From: Veillonellaceae bacterium
Lineage (GTDB): Bacteria; Bacillota; Negativicutes; JAAYSF01
NCBI GenBank assembly: GCA_012523975.1
Contig: JAAYSF010000096.1
Location: 1-49,263, forward strand
Reading direction: 5' to 3'
Length of the DNA: 49,263 nucleotides
The notes under the pieces are model-generated. The model saw nothing but the letters and a program-made list of their open reading frames with translations. It was not told where the DNA came from and searched no databases. The position numbers and the translations under genes were made by a program. Below, piece after piece: positions 9,335 to 21,267 of the stretch (position 1 is its first letter; each line of letters starts with the position of its first letter).

Positions 9335-9411
9335 CGAGGCGGCATAAAAGCTAGATGGTATAAGAATCCAGATTAGATATGATTCGCAAAATAATTGCGG
9401 ATGGTGACATA

Positions 9412-10314
9412 ATGCTTGATGTTCAATTGAAAGTATTTAAAACAGTCGTAGAAAAAGGAAGTTTTTCATTAGCGGCTCAAGAACTGCACATGACACAATC
9501 ATCAGTAAGTCAGCAGATTCAGAGTCTTGAAAGTTATTATGATATAAAGCTATTCGACCGCATGTACCGTAAGATTATGGTAACCCAGGCCGGTATGGCG
9601 CTTTATCCTTATGCCATCGAATTAGAACGGCTTTACCAAGAATCAAACAAAGCAATGCAAGGCTTAAAAGCGGATATTATGGGACAGCTAAATATTGGCT
9701 GCAGTTTGACAATCGGCGAATACTATATGCCGCGCATTCTTGCATCGTTTAGTTTAGAGCACCCTTTAGTCGAAGCTTCCATGGACGTTTTTAATACTGA
9801 GCAAATTACGGCTATGGTAGTTGGGGGCAGCATTAATTTGGGCTTTATCGAAGGCCATTATGAACCGCTCGATATGTTGGTCGATACTAAATTTGGCGGC
9901 GATGAGCTTATCGTTATTGCTTCACCGCAATATAAGCATCTGTTAAATAGGATGTCATTGGCAGAATTTAAGAGCGTCCGCTGGGTAATGCGGGAAAAAG
10001 ACTCAGGAACCCGCAAGATTTTTGAGGAGTTTATAACTATGCATGGTATCGACCCAAGCAAGCTTAATGTGGTGCTGGAAATGGGAAGTACGCAGGCTGT
10101 TAAAGAAGCCGTAAAGTTGGGAATTGGAATTACTGCTATTTCGGCATTAACAGTAGAAAGTGAACTTCAACGCGGCGAACTTATTGCCATTCCGCTGCAG
10201 GAAGGAGTCATTCCGCGAAAGTTCACCATGATATATCACAAGGAAAGATTCCGAACCCACGCTGTCGAAAAGTTCATGGCATATGTTATGGAAAAAACCA
10301 GGAATGATAGATGA
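9412..10314 (+). CDS. LysR-family transcriptional regulator
   Basis: The 300-residue regulator has an N-terminal winged helix-turn-helix (residues 1-60: SFSLAAQEL, QSSVSQQIQSLE, LFDR) and a periplasmic-binding-like effector domain (about 90-295). ATG 9412 gives the standard LysR length and has GGTGA upstream. An in-frame ATG at 9379 would add 11 residues but lacks a ribosome site. It converges on a YeiH-type transporter gene, and LysR regulators such as YeiE/CysB-type proteins often pair with that family. It could control yeiH or the dsr operon; no operator was identified. Confidence 0.9.
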   Translation: MLDVQLKVFKTVVEKGSFSLAAQELHMTQSSVSQQIQSLESYYDIKLFDRMYRKIMVTQAGMALYPYAIELERLYQESNKAMQGLKADIMGQLNIGCSLTIGEYYMPRILASFSLEHPLVEASMDVFNTEQITAMVVGGSINLGFIEGHYEPLDMLVDTKFGGDELIVIASPQYKHLLNRMSLAEFKSVRWVMREKDSGTRKIFEEFITMHGIDPSKLNVVLEMGSTQAVKEAVKLGIGITAISALTVESELQRGELIAIPLQEGVIPRKFTMIYHKERFRTHAVEKFMAYVMEKTRNDR

Positions 10315-10467: not shown

Positions 10468-11454
10468 TCAAATTAAGTTAAATTGATACTGAATAACAAG
10501 TGACACTACAGCGACGGCTATCCAACAGGATAGGCCGAGCAGTATCGGTCTGATTCCGTTACTGAGCAATTGAACGACATGAGTATTTAAGCCGATGGCT
10601 GCCATAGCCATTATTATAAAAAACTTTCCGGTTGCGCCAAGTAGGTCACAGATTGCTGCAGGTATAATACCGGTTGTGCTTATTATGGTAGTTGCCAGGA
10701 AGCCAAGGACGAACCAGGGAAAGATTTTTACGAGATTAAATTTATTTGGTTCTTGGCTGGCGCGGGAGGTATAGACAGCCAACACGAGGGTTATGGGAAT
10801 AATCATCAAAGTACGGGTTAATTTTACGATTGTCGCAAACTCGCCGGCTGCCGGACTATAAGAATAGGCGGCTGCTACAACTGAGGAAGTATCATTAATA
10901 GCTGTCCCTGCCCATATTCCAAAACCGATGTCGCTCATGTCAAGGAGATGGCCGATAAACGGGAAAATGAACACGGCGGCAATGTTGAATAAAAAAACTG
11001 TTGAGATAGCATAGGCAATTTCCTTATCGTTTGCGGATATCACCGGAGCTGTGGCCGCGATGGCAGAGCCGCCGCAAATTGCTGTTCCTACGGCAATGAG
11101 AATGCTAGTATTGCCAACGAGTTTTAGATAACTGCCCATAAACCAAGCAGTAATGAAAGCTGCCGCAAGCGTAAAAATCATGATAATTAGCGATTGGCTG
11201 CCAACTGCTAAAACATTAAATAAATTCATTTCAAAGCCTAATAGGATAATTGCAGCTTGCAGAACCTTTTTTCCGGTAAATTTTATGCCGGTATCAAACA
11301 CTGTAGGCCGTTTCAAAGCGGCGAGCATGATACCGAGGATAATTCCAAAAACCGGTCCGCCGACAATAGGAAATAATTTGCCCAAAAGCCAAGCCGGTAC
11401 AGCAACAACCGCAGCAAATGCAATGCCTGGCAGTAAAGTACGAATAGTGTTCAT
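10468..11454 (-). CDS. YeiH-family (UPF0324) membrane transporter, putative sulfate/sulfite exporter family
   Basis: The 328-residue protein has about ten membrane helices and the family features GGPVFGIILG, ILLGFEMNL and the glycine-rich CGGSAIAATAPV. The family is annotated as putative sulfate exporter, but its substrate is not firmly established. GGAGG precedes the ATG by 8 bases and a strong promoter lies at 11514-11542. It is transcribed away from the dsr operon and towards the LysR gene. A second, longer family member lies inside the dsr operon at 16852, which argues for a sulfur oxyanion role. Confidence 0.85.
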   Translation of the reverse strand: MNTIRTLLPGIAFAAVVAVPAWLLGKLFPIVGGPVFGIILGIMLAALKRPTVFDTGIKFTGKKVLQAAIILLGFEMNLFNVLAVGSQSLIIMIFTLAAAFITAWFMGSYLKLVGNTSILIAVGTAICGGSAIAATAPVISANDKEIAYAISTVFLFNIAAVFIFPFIGHLLDMSDIGFGIWAGTAINDTSSVVAAAYSYSPAAGEFATIVKLTRTLMIIPITLVLAVYTSRASQEPNKFNLVKIFPWFVLGFLATTIISTTGIIPAAICDLLGATGKFFIIMAMAAIGLNTHVVQLLSNGIRPILLGLSCWIAVAVVSLVIQYQFNLI

Positions 11455-11895: not shown

Positions 11896-13089
11896 ATGGA
11901 CGAAATGAAAACTCCGCTTTTGGATGAGTTGGAGAAGGGTGAATGGCCAAGTTTTGTTACCCAAATGAAAAAAGCAGCAGCTAAGAACGAAAGTGCTGCC
12001 GATCTGCTGCGGCAATTGGAAACTTCCTATGAAGAAAATGTTGGACACTGGAAGCATGGTGGTATTGTCGGAGTTAAAGGCTATGGCGGCGGGGTTGTTG
12101 GACGTTATTCCGATATTCCTGAAAAGTTCCCCCATGTTAGAGAATTCCATACTGCAAGGGTAAATCAAATAGCCGGCTTCTTTTATACTTCTGAAAAGCT
12201 GCGCCAGTTAGCCGATGTTTGGGATAAGTATGGTAGCGGTCTTTATAACATGCATGGATCTACAGGCGACATCATTTTGCTTGGTACCACAACTGAAAAT
12301 CTTCAGCCATGTGTTGATGAACTGGCAGAGATTGGGTTTGATCTTGGCGGTTCGGGCGGCGCCATGCGGACGTTGAGCTGCTGTGTCGGTAAAGCGCGCT
12401 GCGAAAAAGCTTGTATTGACAGTACTGATATTATTCGTGATTTGACGCTGTACTATCAGGATGTTATCCATCGTCCGCAGTGGCCGTATAAATTTAAAAT
12501 TAAAGTTTCGGCCTGCCCGAATGACTGTGCAGCGGCCTCGGCGCGTTCCGACCTTGCTGTAATTGGTGTTTGGCGCGATACTTTGCGAATTGATATGGAA
12601 GCGGTGCGTGAATACGTTGCTGACGGTTTCAAGATAAATGAACAGTTGATTAATAAGTGCCCGACCCAGGCGCTTAGCTGGGATGCCGATAAACAGGAAC
12701 TCAGCCTTTGTGCCGAGGACTGCACCCGCTGTATGCACTGCATTAATGTAATGCCGAAAGCTATCAGTATCGGTACCGAAACCGGCGCTACTATCCTAAT
12801 CGGTGGTAAAGTCCCGGTTGTCAAGGGCCCAATGATTGGCTGGGTACTAGTGCCGTTTATGAAGACGGAGCCGCCGTATACCGAGCTAAAAGACTTAATT
12901 AATAAAGTCACCGACTGGTGGGCAGATAACGCTAAGAACCGTGAACGGGTGGGCGAATTGATTGAAAGAGTTGGCCTGGCAAACTTCCTTGAAGCTGTTG
13001 GCCTCGAGCCGCTGCCGCAGATGGTTAAGGCGCCGCGCCATAATCCTTATATATTCTGGAACCCGGAGGAGGTAGAGAAACGTGGCTAG
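11896..13089 (+). CDS. dsrA: Dissimilatory sulfite reductase alpha subunit
   Basis: The 397-residue DsrA partners DsrB in the siroheme enzyme that reduces sulfite to a DsrC-bound trisulfide. The siroheme/[4Fe-4S] motif is present: C-x5-C at 163-169 and C-x3-C (CPNDC) at 207-211. The inserted ferredoxin domain (about 250-300) has C255, C276, C279 and C282, with CMHCINVMP as in other DsrA. Its length is slightly below the usual 405-440. GGAGG precedes the ATG. The last 8 bases overlap dsrB. Confidence 0.95.
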   Translation: MDEMKTPLLDELEKGEWPSFVTQMKKAAAKNESAADLLRQLETSYEENVGHWKHGGIVGVKGYGGGVVGRYSDIPEKFPHVREFHTARVNQIAGFFYTSEKLRQLADVWDKYGSGLYNMHGSTGDIILLGTTTENLQPCVDELAEIGFDLGGSGGAMRTLSCCVGKARCEKACIDSTDIIRDLTLYYQDVIHRPQWPYKFKIKVSACPNDCAAASARSDLAVIGVWRDTLRIDMEAVREYVADGFKINEQLINKCPTQALSWDADKQELSLCAEDCTRCMHCINVMPKAISIGTETGATILIGGKVPVVKGPMIGWVLVPFMKTEPPYTELKDLINKVTDWWADNAKNRERVGELIERVGLANFLEAVGLEPLPQMVKAPRHNPYIFWNPEEVEKRG

Positions 13090-14143
13090 AACCGACTTTG
13101 GACCGCCCGATTTTCGGGAAATGCTCCCGCCGATTATTAAAGAAAACTACGGTCAATGGAAATATCATACCATTCCGCGTCCCGGTGTTTTAAGGCATGT
13201 CAGCAATAGCGGTGCTGTGCTGCATTCAGTGCGCGTGGCCTCGCCCCGGTTAGTCTGCAGCGACTTTATTCGCGATATTTCGGATATTGCTGACAAGTAC
13301 TGTGATGGTTTCCTGCGGTTTACTACCCGCAATAATGTTGAGTTTCTGGTTTCGGATGAGTCCAAACTGCAGCCCCTTATTGACGAGCTTGATGCCAAAG
13401 ACTATCTCATCGGTGGTGTGGGGGTATCAATTAGTAATGTCGTCCATACGCAAGGTTGGATTCACTGTAAGAGTGCGGTAACCGATGCCTCGGGTCTTTC
13501 TAAGAATATTATGGATGAACTCCATGACTATTTTACCGGCAAAATCAAAGTCCCGGCCCGGTTGAGAATTGCCGTCGCCTGCTGTGTTAATATGTGCGGG
13601 GCTTGCCACTGCTCAGATATCAGCGTCGTTGGCATTCACCGGACAATTCCACGCGTCAATGACGAAATGGTCAGCAAAATCTGTGAGATTCCAACTACTA
13701 TTGCTGCCTGTCCTACCGGGGCCATCCGTCCCAATCCCAAGGCAAAAAGCGTCATAATAAACCCTGAAAAATGTATGATGTGCGGCAACTGTACAGCTGT
13801 TTGCCCGGCCATTAAAATAATGGATCCTCCTAATGACGGTGTATCAATCTGGGTCGGCGGCAAGCTATCCAATGCTCGTACTGCACCGATGTTCTCGAAA
13901 CTAGCCATTCCTTTCTTGCCCAATAATCCGCCGAAATGGCCGGAAGTTACCGATGCAGTCAAACATTTGGTCGAGGTTTGGGCCGATCATGCTCGTGAAG
14001 GCGAGCGAATGGGCGAGTGGATAGAGCGAATCGGCTGGGAACGCTTCTTCAAGCTGACTGACCTTCCGTTTACTGCTAAACATATTGACGATTTTACTCA
14101 CGCAACAACTACGTTCAGATCGACAACGCAGTTTAAGTATTAA
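13082..14143 (+). CDS. dsrB: Dissimilatory sulfite reductase beta subunit
   Basis: The 353-residue partner of DsrA has family features throughout: the NSGAVLHSVRVASPR substrate-side region, the cluster motif ACCVNMCGACHCSDI around 166-179, and a ferredoxin domain with CMMCGNCTAVCP at 231-242. It starts with GTG 13082 inside dsrA behind GGAGGAGG. No dsrD-like gene follows. An inverted repeat separates it from the dsrM-like gene, so dsrAB may have its own transcript level. Confidence 0.95.
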   Translation: MARTDFGPPDFREMLPPIIKENYGQWKYHTIPRPGVLRHVSNSGAVLHSVRVASPRLVCSDFIRDISDIADKYCDGFLRFTTRNNVEFLVSDESKLQPLIDELDAKDYLIGGVGVSISNVVHTQGWIHCKSAVTDASGLSKNIMDELHDYFTGKIKVPARLRIAVACCVNMCGACHCSDISVVGIHRTIPRVNDEMVSKICEIPTTIAACPTGAIRPNPKAKSVIINPEKCMMCGNCTAVCPAIKIMDPPNDGVSIWVGGKLSNARTAPMFSKLAIPFLPNNPPKWPEVTDAVKHLVEVWADHAREGERMGEWIERIGWERFFKLTDLPFTAKHIDDFTHATTTFRSTTQFKY

Positions 14144-14149
14144 AATATA

Positions 14150-14232
14150 AGATTGCCGCGCTACCGTTTGAGCGACATTTTAAAGGGTTGTCAATCGACT
14201 AAAATGTCATTACGAGCGGAGCGCGGCGATCT
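14150..14232. repeat. Imperfect inverted repeat of a dispersed family
   Basis: Two 33-base arms (14150-14182 and 14200-14232) match at roughly 25 of 33 positions as inverted copies around a 17-base loop. The right arm contains TGTCATTACGAGCGGAGCG, a variant of a widely dispersed intergenic repeat that reads GTCATTGCGAG in many genomes. A related element lies at 47514-47589. Here it sits inside the dsr operon. Confidence 0.7.
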
Positions 14233-14280
14233 CAAGGCGCCTAATTTTGAAAAAAATAGGGTACCGGCGGGGGGATGATT

Positions 14281-15051
14281 ATGCTCTTTTTGATTGGTCA
14301 GGTTCTCCCTTATCTTGCGGCAGGCGTTTTTCTGGCAGGAATGATATGGCGGATTGCAACCTGGCTTAAATGCCCGGTGCCGTTTAAGCTTACAATGTTC
14401 CCTGCCCCTGCCGACACCGCCGGCAGGGTGCTGGCGATAAGTAAGGAGTTAATATTATTCGATAGCCTGAGGCGCAGCGAACAAGGGCTGTGGCTATGGG
14501 CATGGCTGATGCATATTGGACTATTTGCCGTTGTTGGCGGTCATATTGTCGGAATATCACAATTGGGCCTGCAATTTACGGCGCTCGGGATGTCCCCGTC
14601 CCAAAGCGTAGCTATGTCAGCTGCTTTGGGAACAGGGGCAGGCATACTGCTACTAGGAGCGTTAATAGTGCTTTTTTATCGACGGACAGCAGTGCCGGAA
14701 GTAAAGCGGATGTCCAATCCGGCCGATTATTTTGATATTCTCCTGCTGTTGGCCATTGTCATTAGTGGTATGCATATGCGGCTGACAACACTGGAAGTAG
14801 ACTTGGCAGCTATCCGGAGTTATATGGCAGGGCTAATAACCTTCTGCCCGGCTGCCGCGCCGCAAAACTGGATTTTTCTAAGTCATTTTTTCTTAGTTAA
14901 TATTCTCTTGATATACTTCCCGTTCTCTAAGCTTGTGCATCTGGCCGGATTCTTTGTAACGCGGTCGCTCATTGTTGCGCCGCCGCCGGCCTATCCAACA
15001 GCGGGCAGTATTACTAAGGCCGATTTCGGCGCAAGGAGGGCTGCTGAGTGA
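14281..15051 (+). CDS. dsrM: DsrM-like membrane cytochrome b subunit, first copy
   Basis: This protein of about 256 residues has five or six membrane helices of the NarI/HdrE type. Histidines in MHIGLFAVVGGHIVG and SGMHMRL are candidate heme b ligands. It would take electrons from menaquinol and pass them to its DsrK partner. ATG 14281 is chosen because GGGGGGA lies 5 bases upstream; ATG 14275 abuts that site. It is shorter than the second copy at 18734 (309 residues) and than typical DsrM. It overlaps the dsrK-like gene as GTGA. Confidence 0.85.
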   Translation: MLFLIGQVLPYLAAGVFLAGMIWRIATWLKCPVPFKLTMFPAPADTAGRVLAISKELILFDSLRRSEQGLWLWAWLMHIGLFAVVGGHIVGISQLGLQFTALGMSPSQSVAMSAALGTGAGILLLGALIVLFYRRTAVPEVKRMSNPADYFDILLLLAIVISGMHMRLTTLEVDLAAIRSYMAGLITFCPAAAPQNWIFLSHFFLVNILLIYFPFSKLVHLAGFFVTRSLIVAPPPAYPTAGSITKADFGARRAAE

Positions 15052-16382
15052 AGCCTCCTTTACACATAGCCAAAGCCAATGAAGTGGCGGCCCTGGGGTA
15101 TAGGGTAACACCGGAAGCTGAGTTGAAGCTGAGATTTGTTGAAAAACTCGAAGAAATGCTGCCTAAACTGCGCTCGCTCATGACTATGCTTGATACTTGC
15201 ACCAGGTGCGGCAGCTGCATGCAACAGTGTCACAGCTATTTAGGTACCGAAGATTATCATAATATTCCGGCCGTCCGGGCTGATTTGATGCGCAGTATCT
15301 ATAAACGGTACTTTACTTGGGCCGGCAGAACGCTTAATCGGTTTGTCGGGGCTGAAGATTTTGATGAAGACACTGTCGGCAAGTGGTTGACCTATTTTTA
15401 TCAGTGCAATGAATGTCGTCGCTGCGCCAGATTTTGTCCGTTTGGAATTGATACTGCCGAAATAACGATAATGGCCCGTCATATTCTGTCGGAACTGGGT
15501 ATTATGCCGAAATTTATGCAGGGCGTTGCTGCTAATATGGTCAAGACTGGCAATAACATGGGCATCAATCAGCTGGCTACCCTGGATACCGTCGAATTTA
15601 TGGAAGATGATCTTTTGGAAGAAACCGGAGTAAGCATCAAGATACCGGTTGATAAACCAAACTCGGATATTTTGTTTATACCATCATCAGCTGACTTTTT
15701 CACCAATGTTTATACAATGTATGGCACCGCTAAGTTATTTCATAAGCTTAAGGCTAACTGGACAATATCTTCATCAGTGCTCGAAGCCGCAAACTTTGGC
15801 CTGCTGTTTAACTACAACGCTATGCATAGTCATAATTTGCGGCTAAAAGAGGCTGCTGCTGCCGTTGGTGCCAAAACTGTAATTCAAGGTGAGTGCGGGC
15901 ATGGTTGGCGAGCTGCCAAAATGTATACCGAGGGGTTAAACGGTCCGGTGCCCTTTGAACTCATTCACATCCATGAATACTGTGACCGTCATTTAGGCCA
16001 ACTCAAATTTAACAAATTGCCGATTAGGGTGACTTTACATGATCCCTGTAACTTAGCCAGGGCCGGTGATGTTATTGAGCAGCCGCGCCGCATTGTCAGA
16101 GCCTGCGTTGATGAGTTTGTTGAAATGACACCCAATCGCGAGGACAATTTCTGCTGCGGCGGCGGGTCAGGTATTTTGATGGATGAGATGATGGATATTC
16201 GCATGAAATTGGGCCGGAAAAAGGCCGAACAAGTTAAAGCTGTCGGTAAGATTGACTATTTGGCTATTCCTTGCTCTATCTGTAAGGCGCAAATTCCCCC
16301 CGTCATGAAACATTATGGCTTAATCGATTTTGAGATGGGCGGCGTAATGGATTTGGTAGGCAAGGCAATAGTATTGGATTAG
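15048..16382 (+). CDS. dsrK: DsrK-like iron-sulfur subunit, HdrD family, first copy
   Basis: This 444-residue cytoplasmic subunit has two ferredoxin-type cluster motifs (C51/54/57/61 and C120/123/126/130). Two CCG-type domains follow, with C282 in GECGHGW, C333 in HDPCN, C369-C370 in FCCGGGSG and C409/C412 in IPCSICK, which hold the noncubane catalytic [4Fe-4S] cluster. In sulfite reducers this subunit is thought to reduce the DsrC trisulfide. It starts at GTG 15048, with AAGGAGGG 7 bases upstream, and is followed by dsrC. It lacks the N-terminal extension of the second copy. Confidence 0.88.
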   Translation: MKPPLHIAKANEVAALGYRVTPEAELKLRFVEKLEEMLPKLRSLMTMLDTCTRCGSCMQQCHSYLGTEDYHNIPAVRADLMRSIYKRYFTWAGRTLNRFVGAEDFDEDTVGKWLTYFYQCNECRRCARFCPFGIDTAEITIMARHILSELGIMPKFMQGVAANMVKTGNNMGINQLATLDTVEFMEDDLLEETGVSIKIPVDKPNSDILFIPSSADFFTNVYTMYGTAKLFHKLKANWTISSSVLEAANFGLLFNYNAMHSHNLRLKEAAAAVGAKTVIQGECGHGWRAAKMYTEGLNGPVPFELIHIHEYCDRHLGQLKFNKLPIRVTLHDPCNLARAGDVIEQPRRIVRACVDEFVEMTPNREDNFCCGGGSGILMDEMMDIRMKLGRKKAEQVKAVGKIDYLAIPCSICKAQIPPVMKHYGLIDFEMGGVMDLVGKAIVLD

Positions 16383-16421: not shown

Positions 16422-16739
16422 ATGAGCGTAATTGATATTAAAGGAATGCAGATAGAAATTGATGAGGATGGATTTATTGTCGATCCGTCGGTGTGGAATG
16501 AAGATATCGTCTTTTATTTTGCCAAGGAAGAACATGTTGATGAATTGACCGAAAAGCATTGGAAGGTTATTAATTATCTTCGTGAGTATTACCTGAAATT
16601 CGGCATTGCGCCGATGATTCGCAAGCTTTGCAAAGATACCGGATTTACCTTAAAGGAAATCTATGAACTATTTCCCTCCGGCCCGGCAAAAGGGGCGTGC
16701 AAGCTAGCTGGATTGCCTAAACCGACCGGCTGTGTATAA
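16422..16739 (+). CDS. dsrC: DsrC sulfur-carrier protein
   Basis: The 105-residue DsrC/TusE-family protein has both functional cysteines on the flexible C-terminal arm: Cys in GACKLAG and, 11 residues later, the penultimate Cys of LPKPTGCV. True DsrC carries this pair, whereas TusE-type relatives may lack the upstream one. It forms the trisulfide with sulfite-derived sulfur on DsrAB. GAGGAGGTG precedes the ATG. Its place between dsrMK and the second module fits its role as the shared substrate. Confidence 0.95.
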   Translation: MSVIDIKGMQIEIDEDGFIVDPSVWNEDIVFYFAKEEHVDELTEKHWKVINYLREYYLKFGIAPMIRKLCKDTGFTLKEIYELFPSGPAKGACKLAGLPKPTGCV

Positions 16740-16851: not shown

Positions 16852-18216
16852 ATGGCTGGAGTACCACAATCAAGTCTTCCGTTCATTAAGCGGGAAGATA
16901 CCTGGGCCATTATCATTGCGCTATTGCTCACAGTACTTATCACGATTGCATTTTTTGCCGGTGATATTAGCTTTTTTAAGTCCATGGCTGTAAAGATTTC
17001 CAGTTGGTCTGATGATTTTAGTAAAGTTACAGCAGGCTTGAGCAAAAATCCCAGTGGTCTATTTACCTTATTTGGGTTTTTCCTTATCGCCTTTACTATT
17101 GCTGCAAAGGTAATGGGCTACAATGTTCAGCGGTTCGTCACTGGTTTTATTGTCCTCTATATCTTATCAATAATCATTACAATCCTTGGTTCTAATAAGT
17201 TTATGAAAACCTACCAATTAGAAACACCCCTGCTGGCGCTTGTTTTTGGGATGATTGTGAGCAATTGCATAAAATTGCCTAGTTGGTTCCAAGAGGCGCT
17301 GCGAACTGAGTTCTATGTAAAAACCGGTATCGTCCTGATGGGGGCGACCCTTCCGTTTACCATTATTATGACAGCCGGCCCACTGGCCATGCTGCAGGCA
17401 ACTATTGTATCGGTCGTTACTTTCTTTTCGATTTACTTTGCTGCCACAAAATTGTTTAAGCTTGATCCACGCTTTGGTGCAACCCTCGGCGCCGGCGGTT
17501 CGATCTGCGGTGTATCGGGCTCAATCGCTGTCGGCGGCGCTTGCCGGGCCGAGAAGGAACATGTTTCCATGGCAATCTCGCTGGTCGTAATTTGGGCGGT
17601 AGTTATGATTGCCTTCCTGCCGGCCGTAGCTAAGAGTCTCGGGATGGAACCCGGCCCGGCCGGAGCTTGGATAGGTACATCTGAATTTGCCGACGCTGCC
17701 GGATTCGCGGCTGCAGAGCAGTATAATGCAATGGCTAATTTACCGCCTGGCGATGATCGCGCAGTAAAAACTTTCACACTTATGAAGGTTGTTGGCCGCG
17801 ATATGTTTGTCGGACTGTGGGCTTTGATGGCCGCTATTCTATCGGTAACTTTGTGGGAAAAGAAAAGCTTAGCGCAATCCGAGCGGGTTGACTATGGTGA
17901 AGTATGGCGCCGGTTCCCCAAATTCGTTATTGGCTTCTTCGTGGCGTCAATATTTACAACATTAGTAATTGCCAGCCTTGATCCGAAGCTTGGCTCAGTC
18001 TATTCCAAAGATGCCCTGGGGGTAATTAAGACCTTGCGCAGCTGGACCTTTACCTGGACCTTCCTGAGTATCGGCTTCACGACCAGGTTCAGGGATTTGG
18101 CGGCTGCCGGCTGGAAACCGTTTGCGGCCTTCACCATTGGTGTACTGATTAACGTCCCATTGGGCTACTGGTTATCAAATGTTATCTTTGTCGATTACTG
18201 GTTGAATGTAAAATAG
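16852..18216 (+). CDS. YeiH-family (UPF0324) transporter, long form, in the dsr operon
   Basis: The 454-residue protein has about eleven to thirteen membrane helices. It shares GMIVSN, GIVLMGATLPF and GAGGSICGVSGSIAVGGA with the putative sulfate exporter family. Extra helices at the N-terminus and an insert near residues 270-300 make it longer than the 328-residue copy at 10468. Position within the dsr cluster suggests movement of sulfite, sulfide or an organosulfonate; this is inference from context. AAAGGAGG precedes the ATG. Hairpins flank the gene on both sides. Confidence 0.82.
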   Translation: MAGVPQSSLPFIKREDTWAIIIALLLTVLITIAFFAGDISFFKSMAVKISSWSDDFSKVTAGLSKNPSGLFTLFGFFLIAFTIAAKVMGYNVQRFVTGFIVLYILSIIITILGSNKFMKTYQLETPLLALVFGMIVSNCIKLPSWFQEALRTEFYVKTGIVLMGATLPFTIIMTAGPLAMLQATIVSVVTFFSIYFAATKLFKLDPRFGATLGAGGSICGVSGSIAVGGACRAEKEHVSMAISLVVIWAVVMIAFLPAVAKSLGMEPGPAGAWIGTSEFADAAGFAAAEQYNAMANLPPGDDRAVKTFTLMKVVGRDMFVGLWALMAAILSVTLWEKKSLAQSERVDYGEVWRRFPKFVIGFFVASIFTTLVIASLDPKLGSVYSKDALGVIKTLRSWTFTWTFLSIGFTTRFRDLAAAGWKPFAAFTIGVLINVPLGYWLSNVIFVDYWLNVK

Positions 18217-18227
18217 GATAGTGTATA

Positions 18228-18261
18228 GCCAGCCGCTGGGATTAATGATCTAGCGGCTGGC
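18228..18261. repeat. Hairpin after the long YeiH-type gene
   Basis: The perfect 10-bp arms GCCAGCCGCT (18228-18237) and AGCGGCTGGC (18252-18261) enclose a 14-base loop. No T-run follows on either strand, so it is better read as an mRNA-stabilising or processing structure. Confidence 0.55.
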
Positions 18262-18307
18262 CTAATCAATTATAAACAGGTTAACCATCGGAGAAAAGGT
18301 GATATTG

Positions 18308-18664
18308 ATGGAGAAAGTCAGACAAAAGTACGGTCCTCCCGTTGTCACACACCTGACGCGGGTAAAATTGTGGCTAGCGCCGGATGAATCTTACTGGGAA
18401 AATGTCGGCCGGGGTGTAAAAGTCGATGCGGCTGCTGTGAGAGAGGCCGGACGTTTAATGACAAAAAGGGCTAATCGGGTAGCAGCGATGATGGATGTTA
18501 TGGCCTCTAAGGGGTTTATTTTTGAGGCTGATAAGATGGCAATATACTGCTATTCAACCACGGTTGAGGCTTATGAGATAAAACGCGACCTCATCGCAGC
18601 AGGCTTTAAGGATCCGGAGTTTCAGATTTTACTGGAATATACGCGAGGCTGGGGCATGCTGTAA
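18308..18664 (+). CDS. Unrecognised 118-residue protein in the dsr locus
   Basis: This small soluble, basic protein has no signal peptide, membrane segment or metal-binding cluster and only a single cysteine. The centre (about 38-70) is alpha-helical in pattern and rich in Ala/Met/Arg. The C-terminal half alternates strand and helix (FIFEADKMAIYCYS, then VEAYEIKRDLIAAGF) and ends GWGML. ATG 18308 is chosen (AAGG 8 bases upstream); GTG 18299 overlaps that site. It lies between the long YeiH-type transporter and the second DsrMK pair, all co-directional. It does not look like DsrD, DsrC or DsrN. An accessory or regulatory role in sulfite respiration is only an inference. Confidence 0.8.
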   Translation: MEKVRQKYGPPVVTHLTRVKLWLAPDESYWENVGRGVKVDAAAVREAGRLMTKRANRVAAMMDVMASKGFIFEADKMAIYCYSTTVEAYEIKRDLIAAGFKDPEFQILLEYTRGWGML

Positions 18665-18733: not shown

Positions 18734-19663
18734 ATGGTGTCTTTGGGGTGGTTTATTACCGGGCCGTTGATTTATATTGCTATTCTCGTGTTTGTTTCTG
18801 TCACGGCATATAAAGTTCTGGGGTATGCAAAAATGCCCAGACATCTGCGTTGGGATTTATACCCTGTACCGCATCAGGGACCAGAAGGATCTAAGTACCA
18901 AAAGGTTGATTACAGCAAACTGCCGCCGCAGCGCTCAATGCTTCATGAAATGAAGGAAATGAGTCAGGAAATGTTATTTATTAAAAAGGCGTTTGTCCAT
19001 AATCCTAAGCTATGGAAAGGAAGTTTTCCGCTACACGCCGGCCTTTACCTCTGTGGGTTGTGGCTGACTTTCTTAATTTTGGATGCCGGGCTTGCCGTCG
19101 CTGGTTTCAGTGATATAAACAAGGCCGAGACAGCTTTTGATTATGCGCTTGAGTGGCTGGAGTTTTCGAGCGGTGTTATCGGTTTAACTTCCGGTCTTAT
19201 CGGCAGTCTGTTGCTTTTATGGCGACGGCATACCGATGAGGAGCTAAGGTACATGTCTGATTTTGTGTGCTATTTCAACCTATATCTTATGGCACTTTTA
19301 TTTGGCTCCGGTTTTGCCGCATGGCTGGTTGCTGACCCGTCCTTTGCAATTATTAAGCAGCAAATAATGACGCTGCTGGTCTTTAATCCAGGAACTATTG
19401 AGCACCCGCTCATTATCATCCAGTTTCTAGTATTCGGGATTTTTTTGCTGTTATTGCCATTTGGCCGCATGATGCATTTTGCTGTTAAGTATTTCTTTTA
19501 TCACAATATCATGTGGGACGATGAAATGATGAAACCTGGCAGTAAAATGGAACAGGACATTTCCGGCTATTTTAATTACCAAGTTGACTGGTCTGCGGAC
19601 CATGTGCAAACGCAGGCATCTTGGAGTGCGCAGGTATCTCAAGGAAAGGAGGATCCTAAATGA
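18734..19663 (+). CDS. dsrM: DsrM-like membrane cytochrome b subunit, second copy
   Basis: The 309-residue NarI-like protein has an N-terminal helix, a cytoplasmic stretch rich in charged residues (about 35-90), then about five helices. Candidate heme ligands include His in FPLHAGLYL and in GRMMHFAVKYFFYH. GGGAGGTG lies 5 bases before the ATG. It overlaps the following dsrK-like gene as ATGA, so the pair is translationally coupled. It is closer to normal DsrM size than the first copy. It probably oxidises menaquinol. Confidence 0.85.
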   Translation: MVSLGWFITGPLIYIAILVFVSVTAYKVLGYAKMPRHLRWDLYPVPHQGPEGSKYQKVDYSKLPPQRSMLHEMKEMSQEMLFIKKAFVHNPKLWKGSFPLHAGLYLCGLWLTFLILDAGLAVAGFSDINKAETAFDYALEWLEFSSGVIGLTSGLIGSLLLLWRRHTDEELRYMSDFVCYFNLYLMALLFGSGFAAWLVADPSFAIIKQQIMTLLVFNPGTIEHPLIIIQFLVFGIFLLLLPFGRMMHFAVKYFFYHNIMWDDEMMKPGSKMEQDISGYFNYQVDWSADHVQTQASWSAQVSQGKEDPK

Positions 19664-21267
19664 TGAAAAAACGAGTTAGTCTGGGGGATATTGGCTCAGA
19701 CCAACCTGTAGTTTCGCTATTGGGCGCCGAAGATCTGCTGCCTTTGCCGGGCGAAGATAATACGCCGTTTAAACAATTAAAGCCTGATACTATCAGTAAA
19801 TACGACTTTTCACTTGACGGATTCTCAGCCCTTAGTCTGCCTTTACCTAAAAATAAAGAACAAGAGCAGGCTATTGTGAGAGCGTTCCTCAAGGGATTAG
19901 AAAAAATATTTGATCGGCAGAACAATTGGGGGTTCCTCCAGCCGACAACGCTGTCGACTTCTTACTGCATGCAGTGCAATACCTGCAACGAGGCCTGCCC
20001 GGTATTTATCGAAAGCGGACGCAATGATGTTTATCGGCCTAATTTTCGCTCAGAAGTTTTGCGGCGTATCGTCCGTCGTTATTTTACTCCGGCAGGGAAA
20101 TTGCTCGGCAGATGGGTGGGCGCAGATATTGAACTTAACTGGCGGGTAGTTTACCATTTGGCTGAACTAGCCTATCGCTGCACGTTATGCCGGCGATGCG
20201 CATCGGTTTGTCCTTTGGGGGTTGATAATGCTCTTTTAGCCCGAGAACTACGCAAACTCTTCAGTCAAGAGATGGGAATTGCGCCTGATAATGTTCACAA
20301 ATCCGGCACTATCCAGCATCTTAAAACCGGCTCGTCAACCGGGATGAATAGCGCCGCTTTTTTGGATAATATTGAATTCATCGAGGATATTATTGAAGAA
20401 AAGACGGGTAAGCGCCTTAAGATACCTGTTGATAAGAAAAATGCCGATATTCTCTTAATCCACAATGCTGGCGAGTATGTAGCATGGCCGGAAAATCCGG
20501 CAGCTTTTGCGATATTATTTGAAGCGGCCGGTCTTAACTGGACACTTTCAAGTGAATCTATGGGTTATGAAGGCGTTAATTACGGTGTTTGGTATGATGA
20601 TATTCAGTTTGCCCGGATCGCACTGGGTCAGGTTCAGGCCGCCAAGCGCTTAGGGGTCAAAAAGATTGTCGTCGGGGAGTGCGGCCATGCTACTAAGGCA
20701 CTAATCAGTATTGCTGACCGATTAATTACCGGTGATATGGCTATACCGCGCGAGTCCTGCCTGCCATTGTTAGAATCCCTTATAACCGGCGGCGCTGTAA
20801 AATTTGACCCGACCCGCAATAACTTCCCAGTTACCCTTCACGACCCCTGCAATATGGTTAGGCTGATGGGGATAATTTCGCCGCAGCGTAATATAATTAA
20901 TCATATCGTTTCGCCGGGACAATTTCGGGAAATGCCGAACAGCGGCGTTAGTAATTACTGCTGCGGCGGTGGCAGCGGTTTTGCCATTATGAACTCACAA
21001 AATTTCCCCGAATGGCGCAATTCACTGGCTAGCCGCCGTAAAGCGCGCCAGGTAATCGAGGCCTTCAATGATTGTCTGGATCCGGCCATACCTAAGTACT
21101 ACTGCGCTCCCTGCTCCAATTGCAAGGGCGCGGCCCGCGATGCATTAATTGGGCACTACGGATTCAGAGATAAATACAACATTATTTACGGTGGGCTAGT
21201 TGAATTGATGGTTAATGCCATGCCCGATTTGCCGCAGCCGTTCATCAGCTGGGAAGACGAATTTTAA
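19660..21267 (+). CDS. dsrK: DsrK-like iron-sulfur subunit, HdrD family, second copy
   Basis: The 535-residue protein is the size of classical DsrK. About 95 residues precede the cluster motifs (C103/106/109/113 and C174/177/180/184). The catalytic-cluster signatures follow: GECGHATKA, HDPCNMVR, YCCGGGSG and APCSNCKGA. ATG 19660 overlaps the dsrM stop, with AAAGGAGG 7 bases upstream. The first copy at 15048 is about 90 residues shorter and differs at most positions, so this is not a recent duplication. It is the last gene of the dsr cluster. Confidence 0.88.
   Translation: MMKKRVSLGDIGSDQPVVSLLGAEDLLPLPGEDNTPFKQLKPDTISKYDFSLDGFSALSLPLPKNKEQEQAIVRAFLKGLEKIFDRQNNWGFLQPTTLSTSYCMQCNTCNEACPVFIESGRNDVYRPNFRSEVLRRIVRRYFTPAGKLLGRWVGADIELNWRVVYHLAELAYRCTLCRRCASVCPLGVDNALLARELRKLFSQEMGIAPDNVHKSGTIQHLKTGSSTGMNSAAFLDNIEFIEDIIEEKTGKRLKIPVDKKNADILLIHNAGEYVAWPENPAAFAILFEAAGLNWTLSSESMGYEGVNYGVWYDDIQFARIALGQVQAAKRLGVKKIVVGECGHATKALISIADRLITGDMAIPRESCLPLLESLITGGAVKFDPTRNNFPVTLHDPCNMVRLMGIISPQRNIINHIVSPGQFREMPNSGVSNYCCGGGSGFAIMNSQNFPEWRNSLASRRKARQVIEAFNDCLDPAIPKYYCAPCSNCKGAARDALIGHYGFRDKYNIIYGGLVELMVNAMPDLPQPFISWEDEF

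Follow-up and report, generated by a model that had tools for sequence, protein, structure and literature searches.

The window, the whole 49,263-nt stretch of Veillonellaceae bacterium DNA analysed here, carries a compact run of plus-strand genes starting at 11896 (dsrA), 13082 (dsrB), 14275 (dsrM-like), 15048 (dsrK-like), 16422 (dsrC), 16852 (long YeiH-type transporter), 18308 (a small protein gene, hereafter the orphan), 18734 (second dsrM-like) and 19660 (second dsrK-like). The first four genes of the orphan's own run occupy 11896-16382 and are followed by dsrC (16422-16739; PF04358, TIGR03342) and by the gene for a 454-residue PF03601 protein (long YeiH, 16852-18216). Downstream of the orphan (18308-18664) lie the second dsrM-like gene (18734-19663), identified with Pfam/NCBIfam models and encoding a cytochrome b subunit, and the second dsrK-like gene (19660-21267), encoding an iron-sulfur subunit that matched NF045796 below the cut-off of that model.

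Upstream of dsrA, a YeiE-like LysR regulator (9379-10314, plus strand) and a short YeiH of 328 residues (10468-11454, minus strand) form a classical YeiE-YeiH sulfite-response pair; this short YeiH belongs to a different subfamily and is not the partner of the orphan. The LysR gene was conserved upstream of dsrA in three related loci (L177, L179 and L185; 48-57% identity). No match to aprA was found in the genome of the window, so that its Dsr system, judged by the known pathway, probably reduces sulfite and not sulfate.

In the ORF calls for the window, the orphan is a frame of 118 codons and a stop, beginning 91 nt past the stop codon of long YeiH and ending 69 nt before the second dsrM-like gene. 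An alternative in-frame GTG at 18299 would yield a product of 121 residues; ATG 18308 was preferred because the Shine-Dalgarno-like sequence AAAAGGTGAT, read on the plus strand at 18294-18303, suits it. The existence of diverged homologues in several phyla, together with five residues invariant in an alignment of 33 sequences, argues against a chance reading frame. The preliminary description of a real, well-translated protein of 118 residues located between a long YeiH-type transporter and a second DsrMK pair was thus borne out. The 91-nt gap that follows YeiH also contains a plus-strand hairpin (18228-18261) with a perfect 10-bp stem, GCCAGCCGCT/AGCGGCTGGC (z = -3.2 versus shuffled sequences). 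It has no T-run and is therefore not a typical terminator; a role in mRNA processing or differential expression is perhaps conceivable.

Conservation and predicted fold of the orphan

The orphan matched no family in Pfam or NCBIfam at E <= 1, models of Dsr subunits included, in agreement with the preliminary description, which had recognised no Dsr component in it. Its 33 homologues gave nothing convincing against the same collections, and a sequence search of the PDB with both orphan profiles returned no meaningful match. A single-sequence search of genome contigs with the orphan found no homologue; an alignment-based scan of these contigs did recover some. Homologues originated from Negativicutes, other Bacillota, Anaeromyxobacter, a Nitrospiraceae metagenome-assembled genome (MAG) and Lonepinella koalarum. 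No orphan match was obtained in a search of plasmids. Weak matches within the class, to dehydrogenases in L018 and L020 and to a binding protein in L035, were rejected as chance matches. The orphan is therefore a member of a new, unnamed family, currently annotated as hypothetical.

In the 33-sequence alignment (A3), R57, L95, Y111, R113 and W115 were invariant and G99, F100, E104, E110 and G116 nearly so, the strongest conserved block being the C-terminal LEYxRxWGxL. Cysteine occurred in at most 9 of 33 sequences at any column, and no conserved cysteine is present in the family. Members from Anaeromyxobacter, Lonepinella and genome G028 were just 77-85 residues long and missed most of the stretch from the first strand to the end of the first helix, which places the conserved core in the first strand and the second half of the protein.

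An AlphaFold2 model built from alignment A1 (mean pLDDT 84.6) predicted a ferredoxin-like β-α-β-β-α-β domain, with β1 at residues 12-22, α1 at 41-67, β2 at 71-75, β3 at 78-83, α2 at 88-97 and β4 at 106-114. The end of the conserved tail was modelled with low confidence, as might be expected of a segment that becomes ordered only on a partner. Fold matches in the PDB were generic (best Z = 7.1 for eIF4E5; 5.5 for SbtB), and no family was assigned to the orphan from structure. The profile search and structure prediction that the preliminary description had called for consequently led to no known family, and only to a generic ferredoxin-like fold.

Long YeiH and its association with the orphan

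Long YeiH exceeded the gathering cut-off of PF03601 (E = 2.7e-43, 148.5 bits against 24.5). Against TIGR00698 (YeiH putative sulfate export transporter; cut-off 232.6) it scored 93.7 bits, and the short YeiH of the window, at 162, was also below the cut-off. PF03601 is shared with the transporter of the YeiE-YeiH sulfite stress system. However, the classical YeiH is a short form and the partner of the orphan a long one, and their core motifs differ (GTSEFADAAG...TLMKVVGRDM in long YeiH versus GTAINDTSSV...IVKLTRTLMI in short YeiH). A sequence search of the PDB with long YeiH gave no meaningful match. Its structural model (pLDDT 83.4), with helices predicted at residues 15-35 and 67-87 ahead of the Pfam domain start at residue 98, aligned with elevator-type transporters: SbtA (Z = 14.3, 252 aligned residues), NapA (13.7) and NHE1 (13.6), which count as ties given that Z differences below 1 are not distinguished, as well as a bile-acid-transporter homologue (12.8) and CitS (12.2). 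Long YeiH is accordingly predicted to be an elevator transporter. These matches agree with published work that assigns PF03601 to the CPA/AT superfamily, with 9-TM and 11-TM forms (PMC8396727), and long YeiH is probably the PSE_2 of that paper.

A neighbourhood survey found long YeiH beside nearly every orphan homologue, whether dsr genes were present or not. Co-occurrence was assessed by scanning one set of 250 class genomes with both the orphan profile (A3) and a long-YeiH profile (A4), long YeiH being defined by more than 400 bits with A4 (other PF03601 proteins scored at most 250 bits). The orphan was present in 30 genomes and long YeiH in 29, all of which had both (Fisher p = 4e-37, uncorrected for kinship, which inflates counts of co-inheritance; genomes were sampled one per species and some are MAGs). 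The thirtieth orphan genome (G044) held a short orphan fragment beside YeiH fragments, and YeiH and orphan seem to have been lost together there; these decayed remnants lie side by side at about 9701-10097 of locus L036. Class genomes containing only other PF03601 proteins (at most 250 bits) lacked the orphan. Of 14 long-YeiH genomes in the broader sample of the phylum, 12 also had the orphan.

The two genes were adjacent in 28 of the 29 genomes. The exception, G009, has retained both, with the orphan inside its dsr operon and long YeiH on another contig, where (L180, 2321-9580) the unlinked transporter gene follows genes for a PhsA-like molybdoenzyme, an iron-sulfur subunit, a NiFeSe hydrogenase and a delta-type chaperone. 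Where the orphan directly followed YeiH on the same strand (35 fetched loci), the gap never exceeded 289 nt, and ten loci showed a stop-start distance of -4 to +2 nt.

A tree of 68 YeiH sequences placed every orphan-linked YeiH in one clade with 98/98 support, and YeiH homologues outside it had no orphan. For 44 of the 46 clade members the orphan was found in the genome, in 40 cases within the fetched locus and in four (G304, G328, G065 and G009) at a distance of some kb or on a different contig. No orphan was detected with the long YeiH of G106 and G179, and not every such transporter would thus require it. Pairwise distances of YeiH and orphan proteins were strongly correlated (r = 0.89), a value that shared descent alone could produce. 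Taken together, it is strongly supported that the conserved partner of the orphan is long YeiH and not dsrMK; the preliminary description had envisaged an association with either, and the dsrMK half of this proposal did not hold.

Some loci of the pair had further neighbours. Three (L070, L071 and L074, in G397, G436 and G211) carried a tandem pair of long YeiH genes with a single orphan, placed between the two or next to them, and a two-component system came after these genes. In L071 this system comprised a Cache-domain histidine kinase together with a sigma-54 response regulator; for L074 the component tested was the regulator. In Pelosinus propionicus (L046, 8638-15640), YeiH and orphan were followed by nifH, nifB and an ABC transporter whose binding protein is NMT1/THI5-like.

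Sulfite reductases around the pair

Taking DsrA as present when a protein scored above the curated cut-off, the class had 15 dsrA genomes, of which 13 contained the pair (p = 6e-12); in the phylum sample, dsrA was present in each of the 11 orphan-bearing genomes not belonging to the class. Within the class, dsrA was absent from 17 of the 30 orphan-bearing genomes, and one dsr operon (L185) had the same layout with neither YeiH nor orphan; the orphan is therefore not specific to Dsr. Two dsrA genomes lacked the pair: in G514 dsrC is directly followed by dsrM2, and in G023 a YeiH of another subfamily takes that place. At this place (L179, 5331-8036) the YeiH, 584 residues long, carries a large N-terminal insertion, and a 91-residue ORF with a hydrophobic stretch stands in the position of the orphan. 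This ORF was compared with the orphan and rejected as a homologue.

The pair also adjoined siroheme reductases of other kinds. In G522 (L171) these were AsrABC, with AsrA at 529 and AsrB at 440 bits exceeding their cut-offs; in Lonepinella (L053) the neighbour was a CysI-CysG-CysJ operon; and G461, G547 and Anaeromyxobacter had genes of the Sir/NirA type (loci L172, L174 and L050-L052). In G007 the pair was followed by an SsuA-like ABC system and a rhodanese-repeat protein. Sulfite is the substrate common to these reductase families, although the NirA type includes nitrite reductases as well. About half of the loci had no sulfite reductase within 10 kb, making the evidence from neighbours recurrent rather than universal. 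AsrC was present in 8 of the 17 orphan-bearing genomes without dsr and in 8 of 44 genomes without the orphan; it did not track the orphan across genomes, and Asr is hence an occasional neighbour and not an obligate partner.

These results bear on the proposal, made in the preliminary description, of an accessory, sensor or regulator of sulfite respiration. The connection with sulfite survives, given the 13 of 15 dsrA genomes and the Asr, CysI and Sir neighbours. A role specific to Dsr largely does not, as homologues are widespread without dsr, which the preliminary description had itself named as the finding that would speak against it. As a Dsr subunit the orphan was rejected, having no profile match and occurring in dsr-free genomes.

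Possible roles of the pair

Sulfite is a toxic and reactive anion whose entry into and exit from sulfite-respiring cells are poorly known, and PF03601 proteins still carry the name 'putative sulfate exporter'. Our preferred reading, to which we assign a probability of roughly 60%, is that the orphan is a small cytoplasmic partner acting with long YeiH to control sulfite transport. Long YeiH would most likely move sulfite, and the orphan would dock on its cytoplasmic face through the conserved C-terminal tail, controlling transport much as SbtB controls SbtA in the cyanobacterial pairing of a bicarbonate transporter with a PII-like regulator. In the genome of the window, the pair would keep sulfite flux through the membrane in step with what the Dsr sulfite reductase can process, and in other genomes it would serve reductases of the Asr, CysI-CysG-CysJ or Sir type.

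As to direction, we lean slightly towards import over export. Export is favoured by the link of YeiH proteins with sulfite resistance and excretion (PMC12880088, PMC12423496); the former paper describes YeiH-mediated sulfite resistance in Salmonella. Import is favoured by the presence in the window of a short YeiH with its YeiE-like LysR regulator, and by the fact that the linked reductases consume intracellular sulfite. A more specific version, in which sulfite reductases, respiratory and assimilatory, would be supplied by the pair acting as a dedicated importer, gated by a new ferredoxin-fold sensor of a cytoplasmic signal (sulfite or a nucleotide) and thereby a sulfur counterpart of SbtA-SbtB, is offered tentatively and is rather doubtful in its full form.

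The best surviving alternative, though an unlikely one, makes the orphan a structural or assembly subunit on which long YeiH depends to fold, stay stable or oligomerise, with no regulatory function. Tight gene coupling, with overlapping or abutting stop and start codons in ten loci, and the restriction to one clade would be expected of such a subunit; however, G106 and G179 manage without it, and the closest characterised analogues, SbtB and YeeD, act as regulators or as functional partners (PMC8352866, PMC11073785). Considerably less probable is an orphan that acts in sulfite metabolism on its own, as a cytosolic sensor or enzyme, inherited along with YeiH for reasons of pathway but not bound to it: ferredoxin-like folds include many ligand-binding domains, and the conserved Arg57, Arg113 and Lys92 could bind an anion, but the one-to-one restriction is to a single YeiH clade and not to any one reductase.

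It is slightly less probable still that the orphan is a Dsr component working with DsrC or the second DsrMK and merely co-transcribed with YeiH. Its position between dsrC and dsrM2 in many Negativicutes, and its persistence in the dsr operon of G009 away from YeiH, would fit such a role, but more than half of the orphan-bearing class genomes are without dsrA, in dsr-free genomes the orphan still adjoins long YeiH, and the dsr operons of G514 and G023 do without it. Least probable is a sulfur-carrier or sulfite-handling protein that receives substrate from the transporter as YeeD does with YeeE (PMC11073785), since this layout of sulfur-anion transporter and small α/β partner is the same but 33 homologues without a conserved cysteine leave no thiol carrier chemistry, and Pfam/NCBIfam profiles gave no convincing rhodanese or TusA match.

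The family now annotated as hypothetical is thus defined together with an unusually clean genomic partner, and a near-obligate small partner of one PF03601 clade offers a handle on substrate, direction and regulation. In the passages available from the open-licence literature, no partner protein was found described for PF03601/YeiH; two better-known systems invite comparison. In the YeeE-YeeD (TsuA-TsuB) thiosulfate uptake system, as in the pair described here, a sulfur oxyanion carrier has an adjacent small α/β partner, and YeeE requires YeeD (PMC11073785). YeeD belongs to the TusA family and has an essential cysteine, whereas no cysteine is conserved in the orphan family; on this ground the orphan was rejected as a TusA/YeeD-type sulfur carrier.

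The likeness to SbtA-SbtB lies in an anion transporter of related elevator architecture, as predicted, combined with a small ferredoxin-fold partner. The structure of that complex has been solved (PMC8352866), with SbtB bound on the cytoplasmic side of SbtA and its T-loop entering the cleft between the core and gate domains. The β-α-β-β-α-β fold typical of PII and PII-like proteins (SbtB, GlnK) is present in the orphan model (pLDDT 84.6). However, a two-residue turn joins β2 and β3 where PII proteins have the T-loop; having neither a T-loop nor a sequence-profile match, the orphan was not accepted as a PII or PII-like protein. No sequence similarity was detected between the orphan and SbtB, and the conserved C-terminal tail distinguishes it further; if it works in an SbtB-like manner without a T-loop, this tail would be the natural candidate for docking. 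Should the preferred reading of a small partner controlling sulfite transport prove true, the carrier-plus-small-partner design of SbtA-SbtB and YeeE-YeeD would reach a third transporter family.
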